Part shown: positions 255 to 19,300 of the stretch, piece by piece | Layout: each line of letters begins with the position of its first letter | How positions within the stretch are numbered: the stretch's first letter is position 1 | IMG/VR virus record: IMGVR_UViG_3300047388_000074 | Coordinates: 1 to 26,141 of that record | Length of the DNA: 26,141 nucleotides | From: a virus | Reading direction: 5' to 3' (one strand) | Notes under the pieces: model-generated | Seen by the model: the letters and a program-made list of their open reading frames with translations, nothing else | Databases searched by the model: none | Told to the model about the DNA's origin: nothing | Program-made: the position numbers and the translations under genes

Positions 255-1331
255 ATGAACGAACTCACTGCGTCGAGCGGCGGCCTCCAGCCGCCAACGC
301 TCCAGCAATATGGCATCGAGAACGCCGCCACCGCTGCTGCCTCTCGCGCCAAGGCACTCGCTGAGGCCCGCTACGTGATGGCCATCCGCAACCCGCGCAA
401 CTGGGATCAGGTGCGCCAGGACTTGCTGAAGGAGTGCCGCCGTCCGTCCTTCGCGGGAAACAAATCCGCCTACTACGTCAAGCCCATTGGCGACGGCGTC
501 GAGGGCCTGGGCATTCGCTTCGTCGAGGTCGCGATCCGCTGCATGAAGAACATCAGCGTCGAGACCGAGATGAGTTTCGAGGACGAAACGAAGGAGGTCC
601 ACCGCGTCGAGGTCAACGACATCGAGGGCAACGTGCCGCTGGGCATGACCGTGCCGGTGTCGAAGTACGTCGAGCGCAAGTACCCGGCCGACGACGGCAC
701 CTACATCAGTGTGCGCAAGAACAGCTGGGGCAAGAACGTCTATCTGGTGCCAGCCAAGGGCGACGAGCTCCTGAACATCCGCGGCGCCCTGATCTCCAAG
801 GCGATGCGCACGCTGGGCCTGCGCCTGGTGCCCGGCTACCTGCAGGACGAGGCCATCGACATCATCAAGGCAGTCCGCCTTGACGCCGCTGCCAAGGATC
901 CGGACGCCGAGCGCCGCAAGATCCTCGACGCCTTCGCCGAGATCAACGTGCGAGCGGTGGACCTGACCGACTACCTGGGCCACGACGTCGCCGCCTGCTC
1001 GCCCGCCGAGATGGTGAAGCTGCGCGGCCTGTACGGCGCGATCCGCGACGGCGAGGCTACGTGGGCCAGCGTCATGGAGAACAAGGCCGAGAGCGGAAGC
1101 AGCGCCGGCGCGCCCCCCCCGCCGCCGCCAAAGAGCGGGCCGCCCGAGCTGACGGCCGAGGCCTTCGCCAAGGAAGAGGCTTCCTGGAAGACGATCGTCC
1201 AGTCGGGCAAGAAGACGGCCGCCGGGCTGATCTCGATGCTCTCCAGCAAGAACACACTCACCGAAGACCAGAAGAAGGCCATCGCCGCCTTCGAGAGCTT
1301 CGACGACTCCGCGGAAGGCGGTGCCCAATGA
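255..1331 (+). CDS. Putative phage single-strand annealing recombination protein
   Basis: This is a 358-aa protein if it starts at ATG 255. The frame stays open upstream to position 6, but that part is Arg/Ala/Cys-rich and unlike a protein, so 255 is preferred. Residues about 20-210 form the conserved-looking core (for example NPRNWDQVRQDLLKECRRP, then AYYVKPIGDGVEGLGIRF and ISKAMRTLGLRLVPGYLQDE). It recalls phage proteins encoded beside YqaJ exonucleases and thought to anneal single strands. A proline run (PPPPPP) links the core to an acidic and lysine-rich C-terminal tail of about 70 residues. Its stop overlaps the exonuclease start (ATGA, 1328-1331), so the two are probably co-translated, as in Red-type recombination pairs. 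The annealing role rests mainly on this partnership. No catalytic motif is expected in such proteins. Confidence 0.55.
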   Translation: MNELTASSGGLQPPTLQQYGIENAATAAASRAKALAEARYVMAIRNPRNWDQVRQDLLKECRRPSFAGNKSAYYVKPIGDGVEGLGIRFVEVAIRCMKNISVETEMSFEDETKEVHRVEVNDIEGNVPLGMTVPVSKYVERKYPADDGTYISVRKNSWGKNVYLVPAKGDELLNIRGALISKAMRTLGLRLVPGYLQDEAIDIIKAVRLDAAAKDPDAERRKILDAFAEINVRAVDLTDYLGHDVAACSPAEMVKLRGLYGAIRDGEATWASVMENKAESGSSAGAPPPPPPKSGPPELTAEAFAKEEASWKTIVQSGKKTAAGLISMLSSKNTLTEDQKKAIAAFESFDDSAEGGAQ

Positions 1332-3070
1332 AGATCCACGACCTGGTCCAGGGTTCGCCCGAGTGGCACGCCTACCGCGCTGACCACTGGAACGCCAGCG
1401 ACGCGCCGGCCATGATGGGCGTCTCGCCCTACAAGACCCGTAGTCAGTTCCTGCACGAGCGCCACACTGGCCTGCGCAGCGACTCGACGCCCGAGCAAGA
1501 GCGCATCTTCGCAGCAGGCCATGCGTACGAGGCGCAGGCCCGGCCGCTGGCCGAGTTGATCATCGGGGAGTCGCTCTACCCAGTGGTGGCCAGCGATGGC
1601 GCCTACTCAGCGTCGTTCGACGGAATCACGATGGCCGAGGACACCGTCTTCGAGCACAAGAGCCTGAACGACGAACTGCGAGCTTGCATGCCAGTCAACG
1701 ATGGCCTGACGATCCCCGAGGACGTGGTGCTGCCGATGGTCTACCGGGTGCAGAACGAGCAGCAATTGAAGGTGTCCAACGCTGGACGTTTGCTGTTCAT
1801 GGCCTCGAAGTGGGCCGGCGAGACACTGGTCGAGGAGCGTCACTGCTGGTACCTGCCTGACCTGGAGCTACGCGCGCGCATCGTCGCGGGCTGGGCGCAG
1901 TTCGAGGCCGATCTGGCCGCCTACGTCCCGGCTGCGGCCGCCGCGCCGGCGCCGGTAGGCAAGGCACCCGAGTCGCTGCCGGCGCTGCACATCGAGGTCA
2001 AGGGCCAGGTCACTGCCAGCAACCTCGCGGCGTTCAAGACCGCGGCGCTCGCCGTGATCCGCAGCGTGAACCGTGAGCTGAAGACGGACGAGGACTTCGC
2101 CAACGCAGAGAAGGCGGTGAAGTGGTGCGAGGACACCGAAGAGCGCCTAGCCGCAGCCAAGCAGCAGGCGCTCGCGCAGACTGCCACCATTGAGGCCCTC
2201 TTCCGCACCATCGACGAGATCAGCGCCGAGGCCCGTGACGTGCGGCTGGCGCTGACCAAGGACGTGAAGGCGCGCAAGGAAGCGATCAAGGGCGAGATCG
2301 TAGCCGGCGCGATCGCCGCATTCGCTCAGCACATCCAGGCGATGGCCTGCCCCCACCTGCCGCGCATCGCCGCGGACTTCGCAGGCGCCGCCAAGAACAA
2401 GCGCACCGTCGCCAGCCTGCGGGACGCCGTCGACACCGAGCTGGCCCGCGTGAAGATCGAGGCCAACGGCCACTACCAGCGCATCCAGCAGAGCCTGGCG
2501 GCGCTCGCCCAGCACCAGGCCCACGCGTTCCTGTTCTCGGACGTGGGTGCCTTGGTGCTGAAGTCGCCCGATGACCTGGCGCTGGTGATCCGCACGCGCA
2601 TCGCTGACCACGAAGCCAAGGAAGTGACGCGCCGCGAAGACGAGACCGCGCGTATCCGCGCCGAGGAGCAAGCGCGCGCCGATCGCGAGGCCACGGCCAA
2701 GGCGCAGGCCGAGCTGGCGGCACAGCGTCAGGCCGATGCCGATGCGTTCGCCAAGCAGCGGGCTACGCTGACCGGCGACTTCACGCCGCCAGCGCCTACC
2801 CCCATCATCGCGCGCGGCGAATCCCCGGCCGGCAAAGCCATCATGGCAGCCGCGCCCGCACCGCGCGCAGACGAGCCGGCGACCCTGAACCTGGGCGCTA
2901 TCAGCGATCGCCTGGAGTTGACGGTGAGCGCTGCCTTCATGGTCAAGGTTGGCCTCGAAGGCGCGCCGGGGCCGCGCGGCTCGAAGCTGTACACCGAGAA
3001 CCAGTTCACGCAGCTGTGCCACGCGATCGCGCGCCACTGCATGGAAGCCGCTGCTGGCGTGCCGGCCTGA
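1328..3070 (+). CDS. YqaJ-like viral exonuclease with long C-terminal extension
   Basis: This 580-aa protein starts at ATG 1328, which overlaps the preceding stop. The first about 200 residues match the YqaJ/lambda-exonuclease type: GSPEWHAYRADHWNASDAP near the N-terminus, MMGVSPYKT, an EQERIFAAGHAYE segment with an acidic residue, ASFDGI, and an EHKS motif of the metal-binding active site. It should resect double-stranded DNA 5' to 3' and hand the strand to the annealing protein. A normal family member ends near residue 200-300. Here an Ala/Pro hinge leads into about 350 further residues: a coiled-coil-rich region (many Glu, Lys, Arg, Ala) and a final globular-looking segment ending AIARHCMEAAAGVPA. 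The extension looks like DUF1351-type phage proteins, so this may be a natural fusion. The exonuclease assignment is strong. The extension's role is unknown. Confidence 0.8.
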   Translation: MKIHDLVQGSPEWHAYRADHWNASDAPAMMGVSPYKTRSQFLHERHTGLRSDSTPEQERIFAAGHAYEAQARPLAELIIGESLYPVVASDGAYSASFDGITMAEDTVFEHKSLNDELRACMPVNDGLTIPEDVVLPMVYRVQNEQQLKVSNAGRLLFMASKWAGETLVEERHCWYLPDLELRARIVAGWAQFEADLAAYVPAAAAAPAPVGKAPESLPALHIEVKGQVTASNLAAFKTAALAVIRSVNRELKTDEDFANAEKAVKWCEDTEERLAAAKQQALAQTATIEALFRTIDEISAEARDVRLALTKDVKARKEAIKGEIVAGAIAAFAQHIQAMACPHLPRIAADFAGAAKNKRTVASLRDAVDTELARVKIEANGHYQRIQQSLAALAQHQAHAFLFSDVGALVLKSPDDLALVIRTRIADHEAKEVTRREDETARIRAEEQARADREATAKAQAELAAQRQADADAFAKQRATLTGDFTPPAPTPIIARGESPAGKAIMAAAPAPRADEPATLNLGAISDRLELTVSAAFMVKVGLEGAPGPRGSKLYTENQFTQLCHAIARHCMEAAAGVPA

Positions 3071-3074
3071 CGCC

Positions 3075-3602
3075 ATGGCCCTCCACGACGAGTACCGCGC
3101 CACGCTGCGCACCGCCGGCGCCGCGCGCGAGCACTTCATCGCCGCGATGAACCTCGCGCGCACGCTGCTGGACAACGGAGAGCAGGTGCTGCTGACCGTC
3201 AGCGTGGCTGTGGAACCCGTCGGCATCCAGCAGCGCAAGTTCCTGCACGGCCCTGTCCTGACCCAGATCTCGGAGCAGGTGCGCGTCGCTGGCGAGCGCT
3301 TCACCACCGACGTCTGGAAGGAGTACTTCCGCCGCCTGATCCTCGAGCGCGAGCCCGAGTACGTGATGCAGAAGATGCCCGGCGCCAAGCGCGCCACGCC
3401 GCGCCGCGTGCGCCGCTCCACCGAGAGCCTAGGCGTGCGCGCCTACGCCAAGTTCATCGACGAGGTCATCGACCACGCGGTGGCCGAGTGGGGCGTCGTT
3501 TTCCGCCTCGAGATGAACGAACGCGAGGCGGTGCGCTATGTCGACCCGCGTCGTCTGAAGAAGCCGACGCCTGTCGGCGAGTTGTCCCTCACCTCAACCT
3601 GA
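3075..3602 (+). CDS. ninB: NinB/Orf-family recombination protein
   Basis: This is a 175-aa protein starting at ATG 3075, four bases after the exonuclease stop. It carries the hallmarks of the NinB (lambda Orf) family: an N-terminal strand and helix with GPVLTQISEQV, the ERFTTDVWKEYFRRLIL segment, a basic RRVRRSTESLGV stretch and a C-terminal FIDEVIDHAVAEWGVVF helix. NinB proteins bind single-stranded DNA and SSB and help load the annealing protein during phage recombination. The context of exonuclease plus annealing protein fits exactly. Length is near the usual 140-180 residues. A longer open frame upstream (from 2949) overlaps the exonuclease gene and is not needed. The family call comes from motif recognition by eye. 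Confidence 0.82.
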   Translation: MALHDEYRATLRTAGAAREHFIAAMNLARTLLDNGEQVLLTVSVAVEPVGIQQRKFLHGPVLTQISEQVRVAGERFTTDVWKEYFRRLILEREPEYVMQKMPGAKRATPRRVRRSTESLGVRAYAKFIDEVIDHAVAEWGVVFRLEMNEREAVRYVDPRRLKKPTPVGELSLTST

Positions 3603-3612
3603 GACCCACCAC

Positions 3613-3930
3613 ATGACCAAGAACTTCCCCGCCGCCCAGTCCTTCGAGGCGGGCCCGCGCCCGCCCATCGAACTCGTGAAGGTCGAGAGCAAGCAGATCG
3701 ACGCCATCGGCTACGACAAGGAAACACACATTCTCGCCGTTCGCTTCTCGCGCTGGGACAAGACACCCGCCCCGGTCTACTGCTACGGCGACGTCTCGCC
3801 CGAGACCCACGCCAAGTTCATCGGCGCCGAGTCGCTGGGCAAGTTCCACGGCGAGCACATCAAACCGCTGCCGTTCAAGAAGTACCACCCGGACGCAGTC
3901 GCCGAGACGGCCGGCGCAGCCGAGGCCTGA
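3613..3930 (+). CDS. KTSC-domain protein
   Basis: This is a 105-aa protein. Residues about 22-90 form a KTSC domain: the VESKQIDAIGYDKETHIL segment, then AVRF, a VYCYGDVSPETHAKFIGA block and SLGKFHGEHIKP. KTSC domains are small folds found fused to lysyl-tRNA synthetases or alone in phages. They are thought to bind RNA or nucleic acid, although the stand-alone phage role is not established. The gene lies 10 nt after ninB and 112 nt before the DGR variable genes, on the same strand. An association with the retroelement is possible but unsupported. The short Ala-rich tail (AETAGAAEA) is probably disordered. Confidence 0.75.
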   Translation: MTKNFPAAQSFEAGPRPPIELVKVESKQIDAIGYDKETHILAVRFSRWDKTPAPVYCYGDVSPETHAKFIGAESLGKFHGEHIKPLPFKKYHPDAVAETAGAAEA

Positions 3931-4042: not shown

Positions 4043-4450
4043 ATGACCACGACCATCCAGTCCAAGAAGACCATCCAGTTCGCCGTCGTCGCGGCGCTCG
4101 CGCTCGGTGCGCCCCTCGAAGGCGGCACCTTCGCCGGCATCCTCACGCTGCCCAATGGCACGCACGCCGCCGTCGTCCTCCTCGCCGACAAGCCCAGCGA
4201 AGAGCTGAACTGGGCCGACGCGAAGAAGTGGGCCGAAAGCGTCGGAGGTGAGCTTCCGGCCCGTCCCGCCGCGGCCATGCTCTTCGCCAACGCGAAAGAC
4301 CAGTTCGAGTCCGAATGGCACTGGACGTTGGAGGCCTACGGCGGCTCGTTCGCGTGGGTCCAGTACTTCGGCCACGGCAGCCAGGGCACGGGCCACGTCG
4401 ACGGCGACCGCTGGGCTCGAGCCGTCCGCATGATTCCTTTGGTCCTTTGA
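4043..4450 (+). CDS. DGR variable protein 1 (DUF1566/C-type-lectin-like)
   Basis: This 135-aa protein has a fold that looks like the DUF1566 (Lcl, C-type-lectin-like) domain used by many DGR targets: GGTFAGILTLPNGTH, WADAKKWAESVGGELPARP, AAAMLFANAKDQF, and a closing WARAVRMI. The last third, residues about 101-130, is encoded by VR1, whose changes from the template lie at AAC-derived codons. That leaves the scaffold residues (Gly, Ser, Ala, Trp, Gln, Phe, Arg) fixed and the exposed ones variable. It is a paralogue of the next gene and shares its layout throughout. The N-terminal hydrophobic run (FAVVAALALGAP) might suggest a signal peptide. Aligned to its paralogue it is instead a beta-strand region. 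A Shine-Dalgarno-like GAAAGG lies about 7 nt before the ATG. The binding partner of the variable face is unknown. Confidence 0.88.
   Translation: MTTTIQSKKTIQFAVVAALALGAPLEGGTFAGILTLPNGTHAAVVLLADKPSEELNWADAKKWAESVGGELPARPAAAMLFANAKDQFESEWHWTLEAYGGSFAWVQYFGHGSQGTGHVDGDRWARAVRMIPLVL
4343..4430 (+). repeat. DGR variable repeat VR1
   Basis: These 88 bp align without gaps to the template repeat at 5486-5573. By hand comparison there are 17 mismatches. Sixteen lie at template adenines and one does not (template C5557 is G at 4414, giving TGG for TGC). The substitutions at adenines are to G, T or C. The 15-bp 3' end GCTCGAGCCGTCCGC (4415-4429) is identical in VR1, VR2 and TR and behaves like the initiation-of-mutagenic-homing (IMH) segment. 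Upstream of GGCTCG the similarity to TR stops. Confidence 0.93.
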
Positions 4451-4458
4451 TCCTTCCA
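4435..4458 (+). repeat. Three TCCTTNNN units, 8-nt period, just after VR1
   Basis: TCCTT occurs at 4435, 4443 and 4451, exactly 8 nt apart, starting 5 nt beyond the end of VR1. The array overlaps the stop codon of variable protein 1 (4448-4450). The same three-unit array with the same period follows VR2 but not TR. In BPP-1 a hairpin downstream of VR helps mark the recipient site. I see no comparable hairpin here, so these units are a candidate replacement. That role is inference. Confidence 0.6.
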
Positions 4459-4471
4459 GGAGTCACGCACC

Positions 4472-4918
4472 ATGACTATCACCCTCGAAGAGATCAAGTC
4501 GGATCACGCGCGCCTGGCCGACAAGATCGTCGCGTTCGAGCGCGCGCAGCCGCGCATCGTCAACCTGCAGCACACCGCGATCGTGCTGGCCGAAGGCGAG
4601 ACCTACGCCGGCTTGATCCTGAACGACGACGGCACGCCATCGCACCACCTGGTGCTGTTGCCGGGAGAAACCGAAGCGACCTGGGCTGATGCCAAGGCCT
4701 GGGCCACGAAGGCCGGTGGAGAGCTTCCCACGCGCCGCGAGCAGTCGCTGCTGTTCGCCAACGCCAACGCCGGCTTCAAGGCCCGGTGGTACTGGTCGAG
4801 CGAGAAGAACGAGAGCGGCTCGGGCGCGTGGGTCCAGGGCTTCGGCTTCGGCTGCCAGTACGCGTTCCTCGTCGACGACAGCCACTGCGCTCGAGCCGTC
4901 CGCAGATTGAATCCTTGA
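4472..4918 (+). CDS. DGR variable protein 2 (DUF1566/C-type-lectin-like)
   Basis: This is a 148-aa protein starting at ATG 4472, with AGGAG at 4458-4462 as its ribosome site. Residues 1-30 form a short amphipathic helix (EEIKSDHARLADKIVAFERA) that is more helical than the matching part of its paralogue. Residues 40-148 form a DUF1566/C-type-lectin-like domain: GETYAGLILNDDGTPSHHL, WADAKAWATKAGGELPTRRE, SLLFANANAGF, WYWSSEKNE, and the terminal CARAVRRLNP. VR2 encodes residues about 116-145. The gene follows its paralogue by 21 nt and precedes avd by 32 nt. Such domains tolerate massive variation on one face and typically bind a ligand. In a phage this could be a host surface structure, but no tail-attachment segment is visible. 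Confidence 0.9.
   Translation: MTITLEEIKSDHARLADKIVAFERAQPRIVNLQHTAIVLAEGETYAGLILNDDGTPSHHLVLLPGETEATWADAKAWATKAGGELPTRREQSLLFANANAGFKARWYWSSEKNESGSGAWVQGFGFGCQYAFLVDDSHCARAVRRLNP
4817..4904 (+). repeat. DGR variable repeat VR2
   Basis: These 88 bp align without gaps to TR 5486-5573. I count 18 mismatches and every one lies at a template adenine (to G, T or C). All positions with G, C or T in the template are unchanged. The 3' end TGCGCTCGAGCCGTCCGC is identical to the template. Nine AAC codons of the template have become GGC, GGC, TTC, TGC, TAC, TTC, GAC, AGC and CAC in order. None can become a stop codon. Confidence 0.95.
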
Positions 4919-4935
4919 GTCCTTCAGTCCTTTGA
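4912..4935 (+). repeat. Three TCCTTNNN units, 8-nt period, just after VR2
   Basis: TCCTT occurs at 4912, 4920 and 4928, exactly 8 nt apart, starting 8 nt beyond the end of VR2 and overlapping the stop codon of variable protein 2 (4916-4918). It matches the array behind VR1 in unit, number and spacing, while the three variable bases differ. The sequence after TR (from 5574) holds no TCCTT. Confidence 0.6.
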
Positions 4936-4950
4936 ATTGAGACCTGCTAC

Positions 4951-5316
4951 ATGGCCATCCACGACCAACTGCCGATCCACCGTACTGGCGTGCGCCTGCT
5001 CGCTCTTGCGGTGAGGGTGCAGGAGCAGCTCCCTCGCAGCGTGAAGCGCCTGCTGGGCGAGAAGATCATGCAGCACTGCATCGATATGCTCGACCTGATG
5101 GCGCTCGCCAATGCTTCGCAGCGCGAGGTGCGGGCGGCGTACATCCAGGAGTTGCTCAAGCGGCAGCGTGCCGTCACCGTGCTGCTGCGCGTGTGCCACG
5201 ACGCGCGGTACCTGACGGCGCCGAAGCTGTGGGCCGAGTCGATGGAGCTGCTCGGAAGCATCGGCAGTCAGGCCGGTGGCTGGCTCAAGTCCGCCAACAG
5301 GGCGCCTGCAGCATGA
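4951..5316 (+). CDS. avd: DGR accessory variability determinant (Avd)
   Basis: This 121-aa, basic, almost fully helical protein has the size and pattern of Avd. Avd forms a pentameric four-helix-bundle barrel that binds the reverse transcriptase and template RNA and is required for mutagenic retrohoming in BPP-1. Visible segments are LPIHRTGVRLLALAVRVQEQ, LPRSVKRLLGEKIMQHCID, a MLDLMALANAS stretch, AYIQELLKRQRAVTVLLRV and LTAPKLWAESMELLG, with Arg and Lys on the helix faces. It lies between variable gene 2 and the TR. Its TGA overlaps the ATG of the reverse transcriptase frame (ATGA, 5313-5316), which implies translational coupling. The position between VR and TR/RT is the standard DGR order. 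Confidence 0.92.
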   Translation: MAIHDQLPIHRTGVRLLALAVRVQEQLPRSVKRLLGEKIMQHCIDMLDLMALANASQREVRAAYIQELLKRQRAVTVLLRVCHDARYLTAPKLWAESMELLGSIGSQAGGWLKSANRAPAA

Positions 5317-6665
5317 CGGTCAAGGCCCTCATGCCCGTGCGCTGGAATCTGGTCGCGCCCCTGGCTCACGAGGCCACGGATATGCACGCACTCGGGAACC
5401 GGCTGGCACGTCCAGTTCTGTCCGGTGCAGTTGCCGAGCTGATCGGCGAAAGCCTTCGGCCTGGCGACGTGGAAAGCGCGACTTTGGCTCGAACGCGTGG
5501 ATCCAGAACTTCGACAACGGCAACCAGAACACGAACCACGTCGACAACAACAACTGCGCTCGAGCCGTCCGCAAGTTCCAACCTGTTTTCCCTGCTCCTC
5601 GAGGCGTACCTCGATTGCCGGCGCACGAAGCGCAACAGCGCGAGTGCCCTCGCATTCGAGGCCCACCTCGAGGAGAACCTGTGTGACCTGCATACGGATC
5701 TGGTCTCAGGCGCCTACCGGCCTGGACGATCGACGTGCTTCGTCACGCTGCGTCCCAAGCCACGCGAGATCTGGGCGGCCGGCTTCCGCGATCGGGTGGT
5801 GCACCACCTCCTTCACAACCGGATCTCGCCTCGCTTCTACCGGTCGTTCACGGCCGACAGCTGCGCCTGCATTCCGGGCCGCGGCACGCTGTACGCCGCC
5901 CAACGCCTCGAGGCCCAGGTGCGCAGCATCACGCAGAACTGGTCGCGGCCCGCGGCCTATCTGAAGTGCGACCTGGCCAACTTCTTCGTGGCGATCGACA
6001 AGCACGTCCTGCGCGAGCAGCTGGTGCCGCGCGTCGACGGCGCCTGGTGGCAGGCACTGGCCGAGACCGTGCTGTTCCACGACCCGCGCGCCGACGTCGA
6101 CGTGCGCTCGCCGGCACAGGTGCTGCGCCTGGTGCCGGCGCACAAGAGCCTGTTCAATGCGCCGGCCGACACCGGCTTGCCGATCGGCAACCTGTCGTCG
6201 CAGTTCTTCGCCAACGTCTACTTGGACGCGTTCGACCAGTTCGCTAAGCACCAGCTGCGCGCCCCGCACTATGTGCGCTATGTCGACGACTTCGTGCTGC
6301 TCCATGAGTCGACGGCCGCGCTGAGCGCATGGCACGCGCGCATCCGTGACTTTCTGCCTGCACGACTCGGCGCCCACCTGAACCCACGCAAGACCGTTCT
6401 GCAGCCCGTAGAGCGCGGTATCGACTTCGTGGGGCATGTCATCCGCCCTTGGCACCGTTCGCCGCGCGCCAACGCGCTGCCGAACGCCCTGAAGCGCATC
6501 GGCAATGCCGCGAAGGTCGACGAGTTCGACCAGATCAACAGCTATTTCGGATTGCTGCGCCAGTCGCCGGCCAGCCATCATCTCCGCGCACAACTCGCCA
6601 ACGTCGCCCGCTCGCGCGGCTTCTGCGTCGCCGCTGCGTTCACCAAGATCTATCGCAGGGGCTGA
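5313..6665 (+). CDS. DGR reverse transcriptase; frame includes the template repeat
   Basis: This is 450 aa if it starts at ATG 5313, which overlaps the avd stop. The conserved domain begins near residue 90 (NLFSLLLEAYLDCRRTKRN) and runs to the end. Motifs seen are FRDRVVHHLLHNRISP, the first catalytic aspartate in KCDLANFF (D220), IGNLSSQ at 291-297 (the DGR-specific form of the usual QGxxxSP motif), the YVDD catalytic box at 323-326 and the primer-grip-side GIDFVGHVI. It copies TR RNA with adenine-directed errors and works with Avd. I see no ATG, GTG or TTG in frame between the TR and the conserved domain. Translation must therefore start at 5313, at GTG 5469 or TTG 5484, or at a non-standard codon. 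Residues about 59-86 are the out-of-frame reading of TR, a Thr/Arg/Ser-rich linker. The function is certain. The N-terminus is not. Confidence 0.95.
   Translation: MTVKALMPVRWNLVAPLAHEATDMHALGNRLARPVLSGAVAELIGESLRPGDVESATLARTRGSRTSTTATRTRTTSTTTTALEPSASSNLFSLLLEAYLDCRRTKRNSASALAFEAHLEENLCDLHTDLVSGAYRPGRSTCFVTLRPKPREIWAAGFRDRVVHHLLHNRISPRFYRSFTADSCACIPGRGTLYAAQRLEAQVRSITQNWSRPAAYLKCDLANFFVAIDKHVLREQLVPRVDGAWWQALAETVLFHDPRADVDVRSPAQVLRLVPAHKSLFNAPADTGLPIGNLSSQFFANVYLDAFDQFAKHQLRAPHYVRYVDDFVLLHESTAALSAWHARIRDFLPARLGAHLNPRKTVLQPVERGIDFVGHVIRPWHRSPRANALPNALKRIGNAAKVDEFDQINSYFGLLRQSPASHHLRAQLANVARSRGFCVAAAFTKIYRRG
5486..5573 (+). repeat. DGR template repeat TR
   Basis: This 88-bp template holds 27 adenines, mostly in nine AAC codons when read in the phase of the variable proteins. 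It is the invariant copy: both VRs differ from it almost only where it has A. It ends in the IMH-like GCTCGAGCCGTCCGC (5558-5572). It lies after avd, as in BPP-1. Unlike BPP-1, the open reading frame of the reverse transcriptase passes through it in another phase. The 5' limit is set by loss of similarity to both VRs upstream of GGCTCG. A longer functional template RNA, including about 170 nt of upstream spacer (5317-5485) and part of avd, is likely by analogy. Confidence 0.95.
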
Positions 6666-6698: not shown

Positions 6699-6704
6699 AT
6701 GAAT

Positions 6705-7358
6705 ATGAGTAAGACAAGCGCCGAGAAAGACTTGGTCGTGATGCGCAGCGCGCCTGAGGCCGCGACCTTCCGCACCGATATTTACGGCTGGGTTTCCAGG
6801 GGCGGCATCTTCTATGGCGACAATGAGGACATCGCCCGATATGCAGGTTGCACTCACGTCGAGTGCAACCGCTGCGGTAAGCCGGTCGAGAAGCGCTGGC
6901 TCGCCTGCGATGGCTGCAGAGACTTGGCGGACATCGAACAATTCGAGAAGCGCGACCGCAAGGACTGGGACGGCATCGCGATGCTGTACTCCCAGCGAAC
7001 CGACGAGTACTACAGCGACTTCGACGCGATCTTAGACGCCATGTCCGACGATGACGAGACGATCACTCTGGCGGACATGCGGCTGATGGTCTGCGAGCCG
7101 TGTATGCCTCTTCCGCTCAACTCGGATTTTTTCGAGGACTGCTTCGCCGAGGATCACGACGAGAGCGACCTCCCCAAGGAAATTTGGGACGCGATGGACG
7201 CTTTCAACGCGGTGCTCGGCGCCATGACGCCCCTGTCGTGGTCGCCCGGGAAGTTCGCGCTCGACCTGAACGGCCCCGTCGTGAAAGCCATTATCGGCGC
7301 CACCCCTACCCCTCTCGCTCAGGATGCTGGCAGCCTGGTGGATGGGGATCGCGGGTGA
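6705..7358 (+). CDS. Unknown acidic phage protein with CxxC zinc-ribbon-like motif
   Basis: This is a 217-aa protein (219 if the ATG at 6699 is used). Residues about 48-72 hold four or five cysteines arranged as C-x(4)-C-x(2)-C then C-x(2)-C (CTHVECNRCGKPVEKR and ACDGC), which suggests a zinc-binding knuckle. The rest is strongly acidic (DDDE, DFFEDCFAEDHDESD) with a second CEPC pair near residue 127. I do not recognise a family. It starts the operon segment after the DGR and its TGA overlaps the GTG of the methyltransferase (GTGA, 7355-7358). Such acidic proteins beside a phage methyltransferase could be DNA mimics or regulators, but nothing here proves that. Confidence 0.75.
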   Translation: MSKTSAEKDLVVMRSAPEAATFRTDIYGWVSRGGIFYGDNEDIARYAGCTHVECNRCGKPVEKRWLACDGCRDLADIEQFEKRDRKDWDGIAMLYSQRTDEYYSDFDAILDAMSDDDETITLADMRLMVCEPCMPLPLNSDFFEDCFAEDHDESDLPKEIWDAMDAFNAVLGAMTPLSWSPGKFALDLNGPVVKAIIGATPTPLAQDAGSLVDGDRG

Positions 7359-8740
7359 AGTACTTGTCCGTCTGCTCCGGCATCGAGGCGGCATCTGTCG
7401 CTTGGTCGCCGCTCGGCTGGAAGCCCTGGGCCTTCAGCGAGATCGACCGATTCCCGAGCGCCGTGCTGGCTCACCACTACCCGAAGACGCCGAACCTCGG
7501 CGACATGACCGATTTCAAGGACTGGCCCGATGCAAGCCTCGATCTTCTCTGCGGAGGAACTCCCTGCCAGTCCTTCAGCAACGCTGGACTCCGAGCAGGA
7601 CTGGATAACCCTCGTGGCCAACTCATGCTCACCTTTGGTGCCATTGCTGCAAAGTATCGGCCCCGCTGGCTGGTTTGGGAGAACGTCCCCGGCGTCTTGT
7701 CAAGCAACGGAGGACGGGAATTTGGTGCCTTCCTCGGGCTCCTGGGCTTCCTCGGGTATGGGTTCGCCTACCGCGTTCTGGACGCTCAATATGTGCGAGT
7801 GGACGGCCACGGGCGCGCCGTCCCCCAACGACGGAACCGTGTGTTCGTTGTCGGATGTCTTGGAGACTGGCGAAGTGCCGCTGCGGTACTTCTTGAGCGC
7901 GAAAGCCTGCGCGGGGATCCTGCGCCGCGCCGACAAGCGGGGACGGGTTCTGCCATCGGCGCTCTTGCAGGCGTTGGCCCAGGTAGCGGCTGGCGCGTAG
8001 GGGCTGACGAAGCTGCCGCAGGGCAACTCATTGCCGGCACGATGACGAGCAACGGAGATGCGCACCCCGGGTTCAAGGACATCAACGGCTTGGTGTCGAT
8101 GTGCCTGAACGCGAAGGGGGGGGTAGGCCGGATGGACGCGGAGTCGGAGACGCTGATTCCTACCAACGGGGGTGCCTTCGATGTTGCTCCCACGATCACG
8201 GCGAGCATCGGCGAGCAGACTGGCCAGGACGCGATGAACCTCGGGCTGGTGTCGTTCCAGACTCGTGGCTCCAACATCGACTTGCACCAAGGCGTCGCAG
8301 CGACGTGCGGCCTGAACATCGACCGAGCAAGCGGCGGTGCGCCTTGCATTGCATCCGACCCCACTCAGATCACTTCGCGCGAGAACCGCAGCAACCCGCA
8401 GCCGGGCGATCCTTGCCACACGCTGGCGAAGGGCGCGCACGCGCCGGCCATCGCTTTCAATGCCCGGCAAAACCCGATCAATGGCCCGATCAATGGCCCG
8501 ATCGACACCAACGGATCGACGAATGGCGTGATGGTTCCGTCGATGCAGGTGCGCCGTCTCACGCCCACCGAGTGCGAGCGGCTGATGGGCTTCCCCGATG
8601 GCTACACCGCCATCACCTGGCGCGGCAAGCCTGCCGCCGACGGCCCGCGCTACAAGGCGCTCGGCAACTCCTGGGCGACGAACTGCGCGCGCTGGGTCGG
8701 GCGGCGTATCGCCATCGTTGATCAACTTTCGAAGGACTAG
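7355..8740 (+). CDS. C5-cytosine DNA methyltransferase
   Basis: This 461-aa protein starts at GTG 7355 (GTGA overlap). Motif I is LSVCSGIEAASVAW, motif IV is GGTPCQSFSNAG with the catalytic cysteine at about residue 71, motif VI is WENVPGVL, motif VIII is QRRNRVFVVG, and motif X is YKALGNSWATN near the C-terminus, preceded by LTPTECERLMGFPDGY (motif IX). The enzyme transfers a methyl group from S-adenosylmethionine to carbon 5 of cytosine. The recognition region between motifs VIII and IX is long (about 240 residues) and rich in Gly, Asn and Ser. No restriction enzyme gene is near, so it is an orphan phage enzyme. It probably protects phage DNA from host restriction. The target sequence cannot be read from the protein. 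A short tandem repeat lies in the recognition region. Confidence 0.93.
   Translation: MKYLSVCSGIEAASVAWSPLGWKPWAFSEIDRFPSAVLAHHYPKTPNLGDMTDFKDWPDASLDLLCGGTPCQSFSNAGLRAGLDNPRGQLMLTFGAIAAKYRPRWLVWENVPGVLSSNGGREFGAFLGLLGFLGYGFAYRVLDAQYVRVDGHGRAVPQRRNRVFVVGCLGDWRSAAAVLLERESLRGDPAPRRQAGTGSAIGALAGVGPGSGWRVGADEAAAGQLIAGTMTSNGDAHPGFKDINGLVSMCLNAKGGVGRMDAESETLIPTNGGAFDVAPTITASIGEQTGQDAMNLGLVSFQTRGSNIDLHQGVAATCGLNIDRASGGAPCIASDPTQITSRENRSNPQPGDPCHTLAKGAHAPAIAFNARQNPINGPINGPIDTNGSTNGVMVPSMQVRRLTPTECERLMGFPDGYTAITWRGKPAADGPRYKALGNSWATNCARWVGRRIAIVDQLSKD
8473..8503 (+). repeat. 12-bp tandem repeat inside the methyltransferase gene
   Basis: CCCGATCAATGG occurs twice in tandem (8473-8484, 8485-8496), followed by a partial third copy (CCCGATC). 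It encodes repeats of NGPI in the recognition-side region. The unit is a multiple of three, so copy-number change would not break the frame. Confidence 0.85.
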
Positions 8741-14040: not shown

Positions 14041-16221
14041 TCAACTCCGGGCCGCGAAGCCGAACCAGGTTCCGGGCGAGCCGGCGACACTGCACTCGCT
14101 TCCCATGTAGCCGCCGGCCGTCGAGTCGATCTTCCAAATCCGATCGCCGACGATGCCAGCGAAGCTCGCGGGCGGTGTGAGGTCGCCGGTCAACGTAGCC
14201 CGCATGGCCGTGAAGTCGCGCGGCGTGCCAACGGCCAGAGGATGTCCGACAACGCCATAAGGGATGATGTTGACGCCGCTGTAGAGCGTACCGCCAACCC
14301 CGCGGTTGTTCGCGTAGAGCCAGAGCGAGCCGTAGTCGTTGTTGCCGGCCATCGCATAGTGCGTACCACCGCCCGCCACGCCATACGAGTAGTTGTCGCG
14401 GACATCGGCTTCGATCGTCGCCGACTGCACGCGAACCGCATTCGTCTGCGTCTCGCCGGTCGCGCGACCCAGCTTGGCGCCGCGCACCACCGGCCGCGTG
14501 CAGGTGGCCAGGTTGATGCCTGCGTAGGTCGCGGCAGCGCTGTAGGACTCGACGTCCAGGAACCGCGTGTTCTTCGGCGGCGTCGTGGCGTTGTCGGCCT
14601 TGAGGTTGTCCTGCACATTGCCGTAGTACCGGCCGCGGATGAATTGGATGTCGTCGCCGGAGATCTCGGCCAGGCCGCCCACCAGGTGGCCCGTTGCCTC
14701 GCAGTCCTCGACCCGGCCGCCGATGCAGTACTGGCCGCGAATGCCGGCGTTGCCGCCCGTGCCGATGGTGCGGGCCTGCGAAAGCACCAAGTCGATTTCC
14801 TGGATCGGAGCAAGCAGCGGGACGTAGCCGACACCAGCCACGGCGTTGGCGACGTTGTCCGCGTAGGCATCCCAGAACAGGCCGAAGCCATTGTTCGCGT
14901 TCAGCACATGGAAGCGGTTGACCTTCAGCAGCTTGTGGCGGAACGGCTTGACAGCGACGGGCGCGAACTCGAACCCGGGATCGCCGGCCGTGTGATAGAA
15001 GCCCGCGAAGGTGCAGCCCGCAACCTCGACGTCTTCTGCGCTGCAGTGGTACACGCCGGACCAGCGCACACCGTGGGACGTGGCGTAGGAGAGGTTCCCG
15101 ATCTTGACTTTCCGAATGGCGATGTTGTGCGGGTGCGTCGTGTACATCGTGCTGGCCAAGAATGCGACCTTGCCCGCGACGATGCCGGCGTTGCTGGAGC
15201 TGTCCAGGACGCCCAGGTAGTTCCAGTCGAGCGCGACGCCAAGGCCTACCGTGGCGCTGTCGGGAATCGTGATGTTCTCGATCAGGCCGTTGTTCGCTCC
15301 GCCGGTGACCTGGATCGCCGCCTTTCCGGCGCGATCGGTCGAAAGAATCATGTCGCGGATCTGCCAGCCAGACACGCCCTCGTCGGCCGACGGCGCGCCC
15401 ACAGTACCGGCATTCGAGACCAGTGCGCCGACATTGATGGGGGCATGAATACCGGCCTGGGTTCCTGGCGCGCCGCTGCTTGTGACGGAGATCGTGCCAC
15501 CGACAATCCGTGCGTTGTTGCGCAGCCGCACCCCTTGATCGGACGCGCCCGAAAGAACCAGGTGGATCTTCGCGCCCTTCAGGTCGACCCACACGTTGTC
15601 CTTGATGATGGGCGACGAGGTGCACCGATAGGTCTTGCCCGGCGTGCCATGCAGCGTTCCGCCGCCGCGCAGAGACATCGCGTCGATTGCGGCCTGGAAC
15701 GCTACCGAGTCGTCTGTCGCGTCGTTGCCAACACAGCCCTGATCTTCGAGGCTGAACCGGTCGCGTAGCTTGTCCTGCACCGTGCGCAACACGGCGCCGA
15801 TGCCAGACTGCAGGAACCCCACCAAGCTGGCGCCGATCTGGCTGGCTAGGTTGAGCAGGTTGTTGAGCACCGCCCAGATCAGGGACGACGTGCCGACAAC
15901 CGGACTCGCGGTGTTCAGCCGGAACATGGAGTTGGCGTTGACCGACCCGCCCGAGACCAGCACCAGCGTGCCATTGGCGAAATCGTAAGTGCCGTCCGCA
16001 TCCTGAGCACGCGTCCAGGCCGCAGAGCTCGAGTCGTAGATTCCATTGGTTGTCTGGTCGGCCTGATCCTTGACCAGTACCCGAGAGGAGGAAGTCAGGA
16101 CGCCGTCGATCGTCTGCTCACCAGAGAGCACGATCGCTCCCGTGGTGGCAACGGCGACGGGCGCCTTGATCGGCGTGTTGCCAACAAGGCCCTGGCGGCG
16201 GTCGGTAGTCGGGGACGTCAT
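14041..16221 (-). CDS. Tailspike/tail fibre with right-handed beta-helix
   Basis: This 726-aa protein starts at ATG 16221 with AGGAG at 16232-16228. Residues 1-110 form an N-terminal virion-binding part seen in other tail proteins (TTGAIVLSGEQTIDGVLT and RVLVKDQADQTTNGIYD). Residues 115-165 are helical. At about 168 the pattern GNDATDDSVAFQAAIDAM opens a pectate-lyase-like right-handed beta-helix that continues, with repeated Gly/Asn/Asp and short strands, to about residue 640. A C-terminal part follows that may trimerise. It would bind, and perhaps cleave, a host surface polysaccharide. No catalytic residues could be assigned by eye. It carries no DGR variable repeat that I could see. Confidence 0.88.
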   Translation of the reverse strand: MTSPTTDRRQGLVGNTPIKAPVAVATTGAIVLSGEQTIDGVLTSSSRVLVKDQADQTTNGIYDSSSAAWTRAQDADGTYDFANGTLVLVSGGSVNANSMFRLNTASPVVGTSSLIWAVLNNLLNLASQIGASLVGFLQSGIGAVLRTVQDKLRDRFSLEDQGCVGNDATDDSVAFQAAIDAMSLRGGGTLHGTPGKTYRCTSSPIIKDNVWVDLKGAKIHLVLSGASDQGVRLRNNARIVGGTISVTSSGAPGTQAGIHAPINVGALVSNAGTVGAPSADEGVSGWQIRDMILSTDRAGKAAIQVTGGANNGLIENITIPDSATVGLGVALDWNYLGVLDSSSNAGIVAGKVAFLASTMYTTHPHNIAIRKVKIGNLSYATSHGVRWSGVYHCSAEDVEVAGCTFAGFYHTAGDPGFEFAPVAVKPFRHKLLKVNRFHVLNANNGFGLFWDAYADNVANAVAGVGYVPLLAPIQEIDLVLSQARTIGTGGNAGIRGQYCIGGRVEDCEATGHLVGGLAEISGDDIQFIRGRYYGNVQDNLKADNATTPPKNTRFLDVESYSAAATYAGINLATCTRPVVRGAKLGRATGETQTNAVRVQSATIEADVRDNYSYGVAGGGTHYAMAGNNDYGSLWLYANNRGVGGTLYSGVNIIPYGVVGHPLAVGTPRDFTAMRATLTGDLTPPASFAGIVGDRIWKIDSTAGGYMGSECSVAGSPGTWFGFAARS

Positions 16222-16319
16222 GGCGTGCTCCTGGGAAAGGGTCGGCCCGCTTCAGCCTTCTCGCTGCTGAGGAGGGAGGCCAGCGTTCGGGCTGGGCGGG
16301 CCGTTTGAAACTGGTTCAT
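16218..16319 (-). CDS. 33-aa ORF bridging ejection protein and tailspike
   Basis: A 33-codon frame begins at ATG 16319 inside the stop of the 2131-aa gene (ATGA, 16316-16319) and ends in a TGA that overlaps the tailspike ATG (ATGA, 16218-16221). It encodes MNQFQTARPARTLASLLSSE then KAEAGRPFPRSTP. Exact ATGA junctions at both ends match the style of the rest of the operon and suggest a coupling peptide. It also contains an inverted repeat, so the DNA may be selected as RNA structure and the peptide may be incidental. No function is recognised. Confidence 0.4.
   Translation of the reverse strand: MNQFQTARPARTLASLLSSEKAEAGRPFPRSTP
16244..16302 (-). promoter_or_regulatory. Inverted repeat/hairpin upstream of tailspike gene
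   Basis: On the + strand, GGCCCGC-TT-CAGCC (16244-16257) pairs with GGCTG-G-GCGGGCC (16290-16302): 12 base pairs with a small internal asymmetry and a loop of about 32 nt. In the late mRNA it forms between the giant ejection gene and the tailspike ribosome site. No U-run follows on the - strand, so it is not a classic terminator. RNA processing, attenuation or mRNA protection are possible. Confidence 0.55.
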
Positions 16320-19300
16320 TTGTCGGTCTTTCCGCTCGTGAGGCCGCGGTACCACTCGGAGATCGACTGCGGGTCGGCCTCGCCCGCGCCGTAGTCCCAG
16401 AGGAACTTGCCAGCGGTGAAGGGCGCCGCGGTCGGCAGCCCGGTGACCAGGCCGACCGCGGTGGCGATGTGCTTGCCGGCGCTGGGCTTGAGCTCGTCCC
16501 CGTGGAGCGCGTGCGAGACCTCGATGCCGCCGCGGATCACGTTGTTCACAGCGTTGACGATCGGGCTTCCTTCGTAGTCGCGACCTTCGACGATCGCCTT
16601 GGCGATGTCGCGCATGATCGGAATACCAGCAGGCACCGAACCCAGGACTGCCTTGGCGGCCCAGCCGCCCCAACTCTCGTCCTTGTTCTCGTTTGGGCCC
16701 TGCGTGGCCACGATGGCTTCGATCAAGCCCGGCACGGCGATGTACCAGAAGCTGCGCGCGAGCACGCTGGCGAAGTTCTTCGTGGCGGCCTTGTACTCAC
16801 CGCTGCGTACGTTCTTCGCGCCGGCCGAGGCATCCATCGCGATCAGGCGCTGGCGGTTGTAGACGTGGTTGAAGAACCCGTAGAACATGTTGATCAGCTG
16901 CGCCGCGCCCTTGGCGCGCTGGATCGCCGCGGTGTCGGTGATGCCCTGGGCGCCGTGGGCGTTGCGCACGGACTTGTCGGCCAGGTACACGGCGTCGGCG
17001 TCGTTGCGGCCCTCGGCCAGCGCGCGGCGGTAGGACGACAGCCACACCGGGCCAGCCGTGCCCATGTCCAGCTTCGAGACGGCCAGGTGCCCGTAGTGCT
17101 GCGCGGCCTTCTGGAACGCCGTGTATCGGCTGTCGCCGATCAGCTTGTCGTACTGCGCGGTGATGTCCTTGTCGTAGGCCACCTGGCGGTACTTCATCTC
17201 GGCCGACTTCTCGAAGATGAACTGCCAGGAGTTGCTGCCGTCGTCGCCGGGCCGGTACAGGTCGCGCGTGGCTGTGAACATTTCCTTGGCCCCGATCTCG
17301 CCGATGGAGTTGGCGAGCGCGGTCAGGTCATGCTTCAGGACGGTCGAGAGTCGAAAGCCGATCCCCACCATCACGGTGTTCGTGCGCGCGGTGGAGATCG
17401 CCTTGTCGATCCAGCTGATCGCCGCGTCGTCGATGTTGCGGGCATTGGCCACGTGCTTGAGCCACGGCCGCAGGGTCTTGCGGTACTCGCTGCCGAAGAC
17501 GTCGTCGAAAGCGCGCTTGACAGAGCCGTCGCCCAGGATCCGGTCGGCATCCATGATCGCTTCTCGGAAGGCAAGGTCGTGCAGTGTCTGGCCGATCTTC
17601 CAGGGGGCGACGTCGAGCGACAGTTGGATCGGGCGCTTGACGCCCTCTACGCGCGAGATGGTCGAACCCTTGGGCGTCGTGGCACGGGTGTAGCCGTTCG
17701 GAAACAGCGTGTCGGCGGCGTTCTTCTCGGCATGCGTCTCGGACTTCAGGTCGCGCGCAGCGTCGTAGACGATCGGGTAGTAGCCGCCCTCGTACTCGCC
17801 GTGAGGCGTGCTGAAGCGGTCGGCCTGCACCAGGTCGAGGCCCACGCCGGTGACGCGCTTTTGCAGCTCGTCGAGCGCGGCCTTGTTCTGGTCGAAGATC
17901 TCCCAGACGCTCTGCACGAAGTCCCAGTCGGCCTTCGTCATGTTCTTGTCGAGGAAGGACTTGACCGCGCGCGGGTCCCACCGGTAGCCGTCGGCCAGCT
18001 TGACGCGGTTGCCCTCGTTGCCCCAGTTCAGCGCCATCGACAGCATGCGCTGGCGCGTCAGCTTCATCGGTCGGCCGGTCTCGGGGTTGCGCAGGTTCGG
18101 GTCGTCGGGCACGGCATCGCGCAGGCGCTTCTGCCAGCCCTTGCCGGCGGCGTCGACCGCAGCCTTGAGCGACTTCGAGGCGACGTCCTGGGTGCGGTCT
18201 TCCCGGTGCTGCGCTTCCTTCAGGCGTCGGAAGACGGCGCGGTTCATGATGCCCAGCGGGTCGCCGCGGTCGATCTGGTCGAACAGCGCCTCGGGCTTGG
18301 TGAGCGACGCGTCGATGCCGCGCAGGGTGCCGAACAGCTTCTCGGCGAACGCCGCGCGCGCGCCGGCGTCCTTGGGGTCGTAGAAGTCGGACTTAGCCCG
18401 CTCGCCCAGGTCGCGGATGGCAGCGACGACCTCGTCGCGCACCTCGGTGAACTCGCGCTGGACGCCGTCGACCTCGATCATCTTCTCGCCGCGGCCCAGC
18501 TCCTGCATGGAGCGCACCGCCTCGTCGAGCGCGCGGAACTGGGCGAGCGTCAGGTCGCCTACAGGCTTGCCCGCGAAGTCGTAGAGCGCGGGGTCGACCT
18601 GCAGCTCGATGCCCGACTCAGCCGACTTGCGCTCGACGAACTCCTGCAGCGTGCCGCCCTTCGTGCGCTGGAGCTCCTCGCCGCGGCCGGCGTCGAATCC
18701 GAACCGGCCGAGCAGGTCCTGGATCTGGTCGTTGTATTCCTTGTCCAGGTTCTTGAACGCAGGCTTGGCCACCGCGCGCTCGAAGTTGCGCGTGCCGCGC
18801 TCGACCTCGGCGGCGGCCGCGCGCGCCTTCGTGTAGAGGATGTGCGAGACGATCTGGCGCTGCTTGGCGGCGGCCGCGCCGGCCCAGTCCTTGGAGAGGA
18901 TCGCCTCCTGCACCTCGCGCGCGGCCTTGCGCTCGTCGCGCAGGAAGCTGTTGAACCGTCCGATCTCGGCGGTCGACTTGTTGGCAAGCAGCTCGTCGAC
19001 GCGCGCGCGCATCGCCTCAAGCATCGGCCTGGTCACCGTGACCGACTCGCGCAGCGCCGCGGCCATGTCCTTCTCGGCCTGCTCGTTCCACTGGGCGGAC
19101 TTCAGCGCGGCGTCGCCCTCTGTCGGTTCTGGCGTGCCGGCCTCCGCGCGGCGCTTGCCCTGGTCCAGCAGCGCCTGGGCGCCCTGGCGACGCAGGTAGC
19201 GCAGCTCGGTGGCCAGGAGCTCGGCCTGGCCCTCGCCGTGCAGCGCCGCCACCGCCTCGTCCTTGATCGAGGCCTCGTCGGTCAGCTCGCCCTTGCGCTC

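Follow-up and report, generated by a model that had tools for sequence, protein, structure and literature searches.

A diversity-generating retroelement with an RT-15 RNA leader and direct-repeat variable-region flanks, and probably intracellular targets, in a lineage of temperate phages

An analysis of the viral record IMGVR_UViG_3300047388_000074 (the window; a 26,141-bp IMG/VR fragment and not a complete genome) has revealed what is almost certainly a complete diversity-generating retroelement (DGR), encoded on one strand within a recombination operon and equipped with two variable target proteins. Comparison with related loci (numbered L below) suggests, with a probability of about 0.6, that this element represents a distinct DGR lineage of temperate phages and prophages, mainly of proteobacteria, which is characterized by an RT-15 structured RNA in front of its template, by direct repeats beside its variable regions and by targets that would act inside the cell and not in the virion. 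The source is probably a temperate, podovirus-like phage, the podovirus assignment being drawn from its predicted internal virion proteins. The parts of the cassette are the following:

4043..4450, + strand: variable protein 1 (VP1), 135 aa, C-type-lectin domain with C-terminal variable region (AlphaFold2 pLDDT 84.8)
4343..4430, + strand: variable region 1 (VR1), 88 bp, 16 of 17 differences from the template repeat at template adenines
4431..4454, + strand: three 8-bp direct repeats immediately 3' of VR1, TGATTCCT TTGGTCCT TTGATCCT
4472..4918, + strand: variable protein 2 (VP2), 148 aa, N-terminal helix (residues 5-24) and C-type-lectin domain (pLDDT 92.5)
4817..4904, + strand: variable region 2 (VR2), 88 bp, 18 of 18 differences from the template repeat at template adenines
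4908..4931, + strand: three 8-bp direct repeats just 3' of VR2, TGAATCCT TGAGTCCT TCAGTCCT
4951..5316, + strand: Avd, 121 aa, with phrog_3206, bAvd and NCBIfam DivGenRetAVD matches
5300..5488, + strand: RT-15 structured RNA (Rfam RF03018), reaching from the 3' end of avd to where the template repeat begins, and putative leader at the 5' side of the template RNA
5486..5573, + strand: template repeat (TR), 27 adenines in 88 bases
5313..6665, + strand: open reading frame of the DGR reverse transcriptase (RT), with homology from 5577 and a frame open through the TR; the candidate start ATG 5313 overlaps the avd stop

Both VRs align with the TR over 88 bp without gaps, and the homology ends sharply past GTCCGC. 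The single difference of VR1 at a non-adenine position is a C>G change at 4414, and the adenine bias is significant against a template of 31% A (binomial P of 7e-8 for VR1 and 6e-10 for VR2). No stop codon can be generated from any TR codon by A>N changes, with 16 codons being variable. A scan of the whole window for adenine-biased repeat pairs has detected only VR1 and VR2 with the TR. In the scan of locus L003, a tandem repeat-like block (4250-4650) with no relation to a DGR gave many such calls.

Pairs of TR and VR with changes at template adenines were also found in the relatives. From the KTSC gene up to the point inside the RT gene at which L010 ends, the metagenomic contigs L002 and L010 differ in VR2 only, by four bases, three of which fall at TR adenines. 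Between the Pseudomonas aeruginosa phages Haboob and phPA-G, neither the TR nor the RT-15 sequence differs, and their 25 VR differences are all at TR adenines, as are 62 of the 65 VR differences of Cruim01 with Aurca01 and Medea1. Thus, the variation among related phages that the first-pass annotation, made from the window alone, had called for was found, since near-identical relatives differ mainly in their VRs. These comparisons provide strong but indirect evidence for recent retrohoming in the lineage, and the DGR is probably active.

The Avd protein was matched by the PHROG family phrog_3206, annotated as Avd protein of DGR (E 1.8e-21), and also by the bAvd (E 6e-8) and NCBIfam DivGenRetAVD (E 5.8e-10) models, both under their curated cut-offs. 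The RT belongs to phrog_1423 (E 2.5e-106), contains the IGNLSSQ and YVDD motifs and is 31% identical to Brt of the Bordetella phage BPP-1 (tblastn, E 2e-35), so that the placement of this enzyme with DGR reverse transcriptases proposed by the annotation appears well founded.

The RNA layout is one of the two features that set the lineage apart. The RT-15 model (RF03018) matched positions 5300-5488 over its full length (1-192) with 151.7 bits (E 1.5e-36), above the gathering threshold of 82 bits, and the match overlaps the end of avd on one side and the start of the TR, by a few bases, on the other. In Rfam the RT-15 entry stands as a separate RNA family, whereas here it sits between avd and TR. 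It is found at the same place in all tested relatives whose RT is at least 57% identical, and because it ends at the TR start in each of them, RT-15 would be the leader of the DGR template RNA. Neither the window nor the relatives matched the Phage_DGR family (RF03022), which was detected in the BPP-1 positive control. With a structured RNA placed 5' of the template, the arrangement resembles that of msr and msd in retrons, and that this order bears on priming is a speculation based on analogy.

Downstream, the RT homology begins 4 nt past the TR end. The distance from the TR end to the RT homology was a multiple of 3 in 37 of 37 loci, with ten different lengths ranging from 3 to 48 nt, and in the same loci no stop codon separates the RT frame from the TR. 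To judge from both observations, RT translation most likely passes through at least the 3' part of the TR. Several TRs contain an in-frame ATG, and the TR of the window is devoid of a start codon. Translation from ATG 5313 was rejected as a general rule, as locus L025 has a stop in the TR and Haboob and phPA-G lack a start upstream of it. The frame upstream of the TR is open in the close relatives of the window; given those three cases, the conserved peptide encoded there is better explained as a by-product of the RT-15 RNA. A hidden 3' spacer within the RT gene was also discarded, as conservation at synonymous sites was not raised at the RT 5' end. In two loci of a sister RT lineage (L011:9849-9970 and L013:9872-9956) the RT frame runs through the TR and reads it in the frame of the target protein, giving an NQN-rich segment, unlike the RT frame of the window, which reads the TR as Thr/Arg-rich.

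The second distinguishing feature lies 3' of the VRs, where three copies of an 8-bp unit resembling T[TC][AG]N[TC][CA][AC]T are present; the TRs lack them. The self-match at a lag of 8 was 0.523 after 76 VRs, compared to 0.259 (sd 0.011) in shuffled sequences and 0.239 after TRs. In the window the fitted repeat model gave exactly two sites of at least 10 bits, one immediately past each VR (4431 and 4908), and a pattern search agreed with these sites. Low scores were obtained for both VRs of L009 and for those of L041, the VR ends of the latter being possibly misplaced. A GC-rich hairpin with a GRNA loop, which in BPP-1 is needed 3' of the VR for efficient homing and has been proposed as a conserved requirement (PMC3240598), was found after none of the 76 VRs of the lineage and was detected in the BPP-1 control. 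The repeats may have a role in homing. Alternatively, they could be a by-product, for instance of selection for stop codons in several frames past the variable C-terminus. Stops in all three frames within 40 nt occur after 34% of the VRs and in 10% of the shuffles, but about two thirds of the VRs are not followed by such stops, so that selection for stops fails to account for the strict 8-nt period. Furthermore, the repeats are absent from chromosomal non-DGR homologues and from the targets beside a DGR deletion in L030, L036, L066 and L071. For these reasons the stop-cassette explanation, weakly supported by the excess over shuffles, was rejected as improbable.

Loci L011 and L013, with RTs 43-52% identical, have the 8-bp repeats and no RT-15 match, and in L015:167 and L016:9029 (RT 42% identical) a 10-bp hairpin with a TTAA loop lies 3' of the VR. 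From this distribution the repeats may be an older feature than the RT-15 layout. Both kinds of VR flank, hairpin and direct repeat, thus occur within one wider RT group.

The BPP-1 plan attributed to the cassette by the first-pass annotation holds for the gene order, and does not extend to the template RNA, the RT start or the VR flank. Both systems share the order of variable protein, avd, TR and RT (mtd-avd-TR-brt in BPP-1), adenine-specific VR changes, an Avd protein, a lectin-fold target with the VR at its C-terminus and, if the assignment from internal virion proteins is correct, a podovirus genome. In BPP-1, however, the TR lies directly next to avd, and a 144-nt spacer corresponding to Phage_DGR RF03022 separates it from brt, so that the structured element is 3' of the TR, whereas in the window RT-15 is 5' of the TR and the RT follows directly. 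The BPP-1 spacer has been assigned to RT-Avd recruitment and priming (PMC12875486). The BPP-1 VR is followed by a GC hairpin with a GAAA loop in place of 8-bp direct repeats, and the BPP-1 target is a 381-aa tail protein encoded in the tail operon, unlike the window targets, which by position lie outside the tail genes.

The Burkholderia cenocepacia phage Magia belongs to the same lineage: its RT is 62% identical to that of the window, and it has a pair of neighbouring targets and one further target, along with Avd, RT-15, a TR and the early-operon position. A potential DGR with genes 47 and 57 as targets and a suggested change of host range are mentioned by its authors, in a passage that says nothing of a third VR in gene 46, of the RNA, of the 8-bp repeats or of where the operon lies (PMC7883833). 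A literature search has retrieved no report of early-operon phage targets, RT-15 as a DGR leader, frame locking between TR and RT or the 8-bp repeats, although a published link between RT-15 and DGRs is possible. While DGRs as such are known, the view that the RNA, frame and VR-flank layout of this lineage is distinct is well supported by the sequence comparisons.

For the targets, which the first-pass annotation had assigned to the DUF1566 type, the structural models show a clear C-type-lectin fold with the VR at the C-terminus, but the sequence match to that family is weak, as VP2 matched Lcl_C/DUF1566 (Pfam PF07603) with E 0.022 and 15.5 bits against a gathering cut-off of 34.9. The best solved matches of the VP2 model were the C-terminal domain of Lcl (8q4e, Z 12.7) and Bd2740 (8oks, Z 13.0), and the VP1 model resembles that of VP2. 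The fold matches listed include no previously solved variable protein of a DGR, such as Mtd or TvpA, which does not imply a different fold. Lcl is an exported Legionella adhesin, and the targets resemble its C-terminal domain (Pfam Lcl_C; PDB 8q4e) only, in fold and, below the Pfam cut-off, in profile. The 35 members examined have 118-230 aa and no second domain was recognised in any of them. Usually two to three VRs are present per TR, and in L006, Magia and Cruim01 a third target is located far upstream, near the cI repressor gene. Massilia and relatives encode a 123-aa chromosomal Lcl_C protein (L049:9971-10342, with homologues in L048, L050, L052, L053 and L058-L061) next to conserved genes for an M28 peptidase, a phosphoesterase and a protein kinase. 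The VR-equivalent of this Oxalobacteraceae protein is nearly invariant, and it is possibly a domesticated target.

Natural losses of the DGR core have also been found. The targets are intact and the template and RT are gone in L019/L020 (where 42 RT residues remain), L021, L030, L035 and L036. In the isolates Aurca01 and Medea1 both targets remain and a NUMOD4-HNH gene has taken the place of avd-TR-RT, and the phages U7, D14O, PMG1 and PAN70 encode related proteins with no RT among the genes listed. The persistence of targets where template and RT were lost indicates that the use of the proteins outlasts their diversification. Cruim01 and Aurca01, which share both source and host strain, show 99.7% identity across the 2.3 kb directly past the RT and constitute a natural pair that differs by the presence of the RT part, which makes the function directly testable. 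HNH genes occupy the place of the missing avd, TR or RT right after the last target in L066:6317-6808 and L071:6314-6808 (NUMOD4-HNH_3) and in L030:10469-10921 (HNH_3), and it looks like HNH endonuclease genes have repeatedly displaced the DGR core. In L021:8842-9720 and L035:11025-11480, unrelated open reading frames start in or just past RT-15 where TR and RT are gone; their designation as AP2/HNH-like was withdrawn for lack of a Pfam match, HNH being confirmed in L030, L066 and L071 only.

The role of the targets was considered in the light of their genomic position, for which the following neighbours are relevant:

1151..3930, + strand: RecE-like exonuclease, NinB and KTSC genes, upstream and co-directional
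6699..8740, + strand: phrog_11053 protein and C5 DNA methylase, downstream and co-directional
14041..16221, - strand: tailspike-like protein (profile match) of the virion operon, with no VR in the whole-window TR/VR scan

On the plus strand of the window the genes for the RecE-like exonuclease, NinB and KTSC are followed by VP1, VP2, Avd, TR, RT, a phage protein and the C5 DNA methylase, and the minus strand carries the lysis and virion genes, including those for the tailspike-like protein and large internal virion proteins. The position and strand of the cassette, opposite to the tail operon, are therefore as initially described. On the minus strand (16316-22711), a 2131-aa phrog_9880 protein adjoins a transglycosylase and an internal virion protein, a neighbourhood that suggests a podovirus ejection apparatus. 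The cassette occupies the position of the lambda left operon. In the annotated phages it lies with exonuclease, annealing protein, methylase and integrase genes, opposite to the tail and lysis strand; this early position was found in Magia, QDWS, Cruim01, LPPA56 and phPA-G, and the cassettes of Haboob and phPA-G adjoin cI. Marker genes recognised by similarity in contigs and prophages largely fit this picture, lying on the DGR strand at many other loci. The same target family is present in three virion types, the podovirus-like window, the myovirus Magia and the siphovirus Cruim01. A conserved operator upstream of VP1 was discarded because the alignment was conserved at the ribosome-site region only.

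The early-operon position opposite to the tail genes argues, without proof, for early production of the targets and against a place among the tail parts, and a non-virion role inside the cell is the best reading of the gene context, and a rather probable one. Several observations weigh against it: the integrase of the window is on the minus strand, a lysis gene is on the DGR strand in the L047 prophage, no sigma-70 promoters or terminators were found near the cassette, the hydrophobic VP1 N-terminus (mean of 2.0 over 15 residues) could allow export, a related lectin protein is encoded at the end of the tail operon of the Halomonas phage QHHSV-1, and most phage DGR targets were labelled as tail proteins, by prediction, in a machine-learning survey (PMC8144416). 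The last two points favour the possibility that the variable proteins are virion adhesins produced from an early transcript and joined to the tail at assembly, with tropism switching as in BPP-1. Receptor binding is the function of those phage DGR targets that have been characterised (PMC8144416; PMC10743442), small targets without Mtd attachment domains have been proposed as adhesins (PMC10743442) and the nearest solved fold is the C-terminal domain of the Lcl adhesin. Nevertheless, the early-operon position, the occurrence in three virion types, the small size and the lack of an anchor or a common attachment domain argue against virion adhesins, and the window has its own VR-free tailspike. 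Aurca01, which has lost the means to rewrite its targets, forms plaques on its host all the same, although a fixed adhesin would permit the same. On balance, a virion adhesin appears unlikely.

Display of the variable proteins on the lysogen surface or in the periplasm, for example to block superinfection or to change adhesion, is considered less likely still. It would be consistent with the VP1-type N-terminus, in which a positively charged start precedes a hydrophobic stretch (mean 1.6-2.25 in L002, L005, L019, L021 and the window), with the membrane-bound nature of many cellular DGR targets (PMC8144416) and with the location of third targets near cI in the three cases mentioned above (L006, Magia and Cruim01). 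However, VP2-type proteins and most other members have no hydrophobic N-terminal segment, the absence of a predicted signal peptide in VP2 argues against its surface display, and the hydrophobic stretch of VP1 is modelled as a low-confidence helix attached to the lectin domain. Given its hydrophobic N-terminus, VP1 may nonetheless be located in the envelope. A comparable case is provided by the DGR antigen sensors of multicellular bacteria, whose lectin-fold targets, several of them predicted to be cytoplasmic, were proposed to sense invaders (PMC10907252). Those sensors are cellular, depend on clade 5 RTs and have targets tied to NACHT/STAND effectors, whereas the window targets are phage-encoded and have no effector domain.

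The system could operate as follows. The RT and Avd would copy the TR from an RNA led by RT-15, erring at adenines, and the cDNA would be placed into the VR via the shared 3' block GCTCGAGCCGTCCGC, with the 8-bp repeats marking the VR as recipient in the manner of the BPP-1 hairpin. The two products, predicted to be minimal binding proteins of C-type-lectin fold for which about 6e14 variants are possible, would be made together with early recombination genes and a DNA methylase from a lambda-like left operon, as their position suggests. Their site of action would be the interior of the infected or lysogenic cell, where they would bind a variable partner; a defence factor of the host or a competing phage is the most plausible candidate. 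It is a tentative proposal, favoured less than the lineage and its non-virion targets, that temperate phages employ a DGR of separate RNA layout and direct-repeat homing site to rewrite, again and again, an early intracellular recognition protein, as a counterpart of an adaptive receptor directed against variable host defences or rival phages.

Phage DGRs have been understood almost entirely through tropism switching of tail fibres. The reversed RNA layout and the direct-repeat flank bear on how template RNAs are primed and terminated and on how a VR is marked as recipient. The presence of early-gene targets in phages with three kinds of virion suggests that diversification extends to phage proteins that act after entry and, if true, the interpretation of these targets as intracellular recognition proteins would extend the reach of phage DGRs past the attachment to the host cell.

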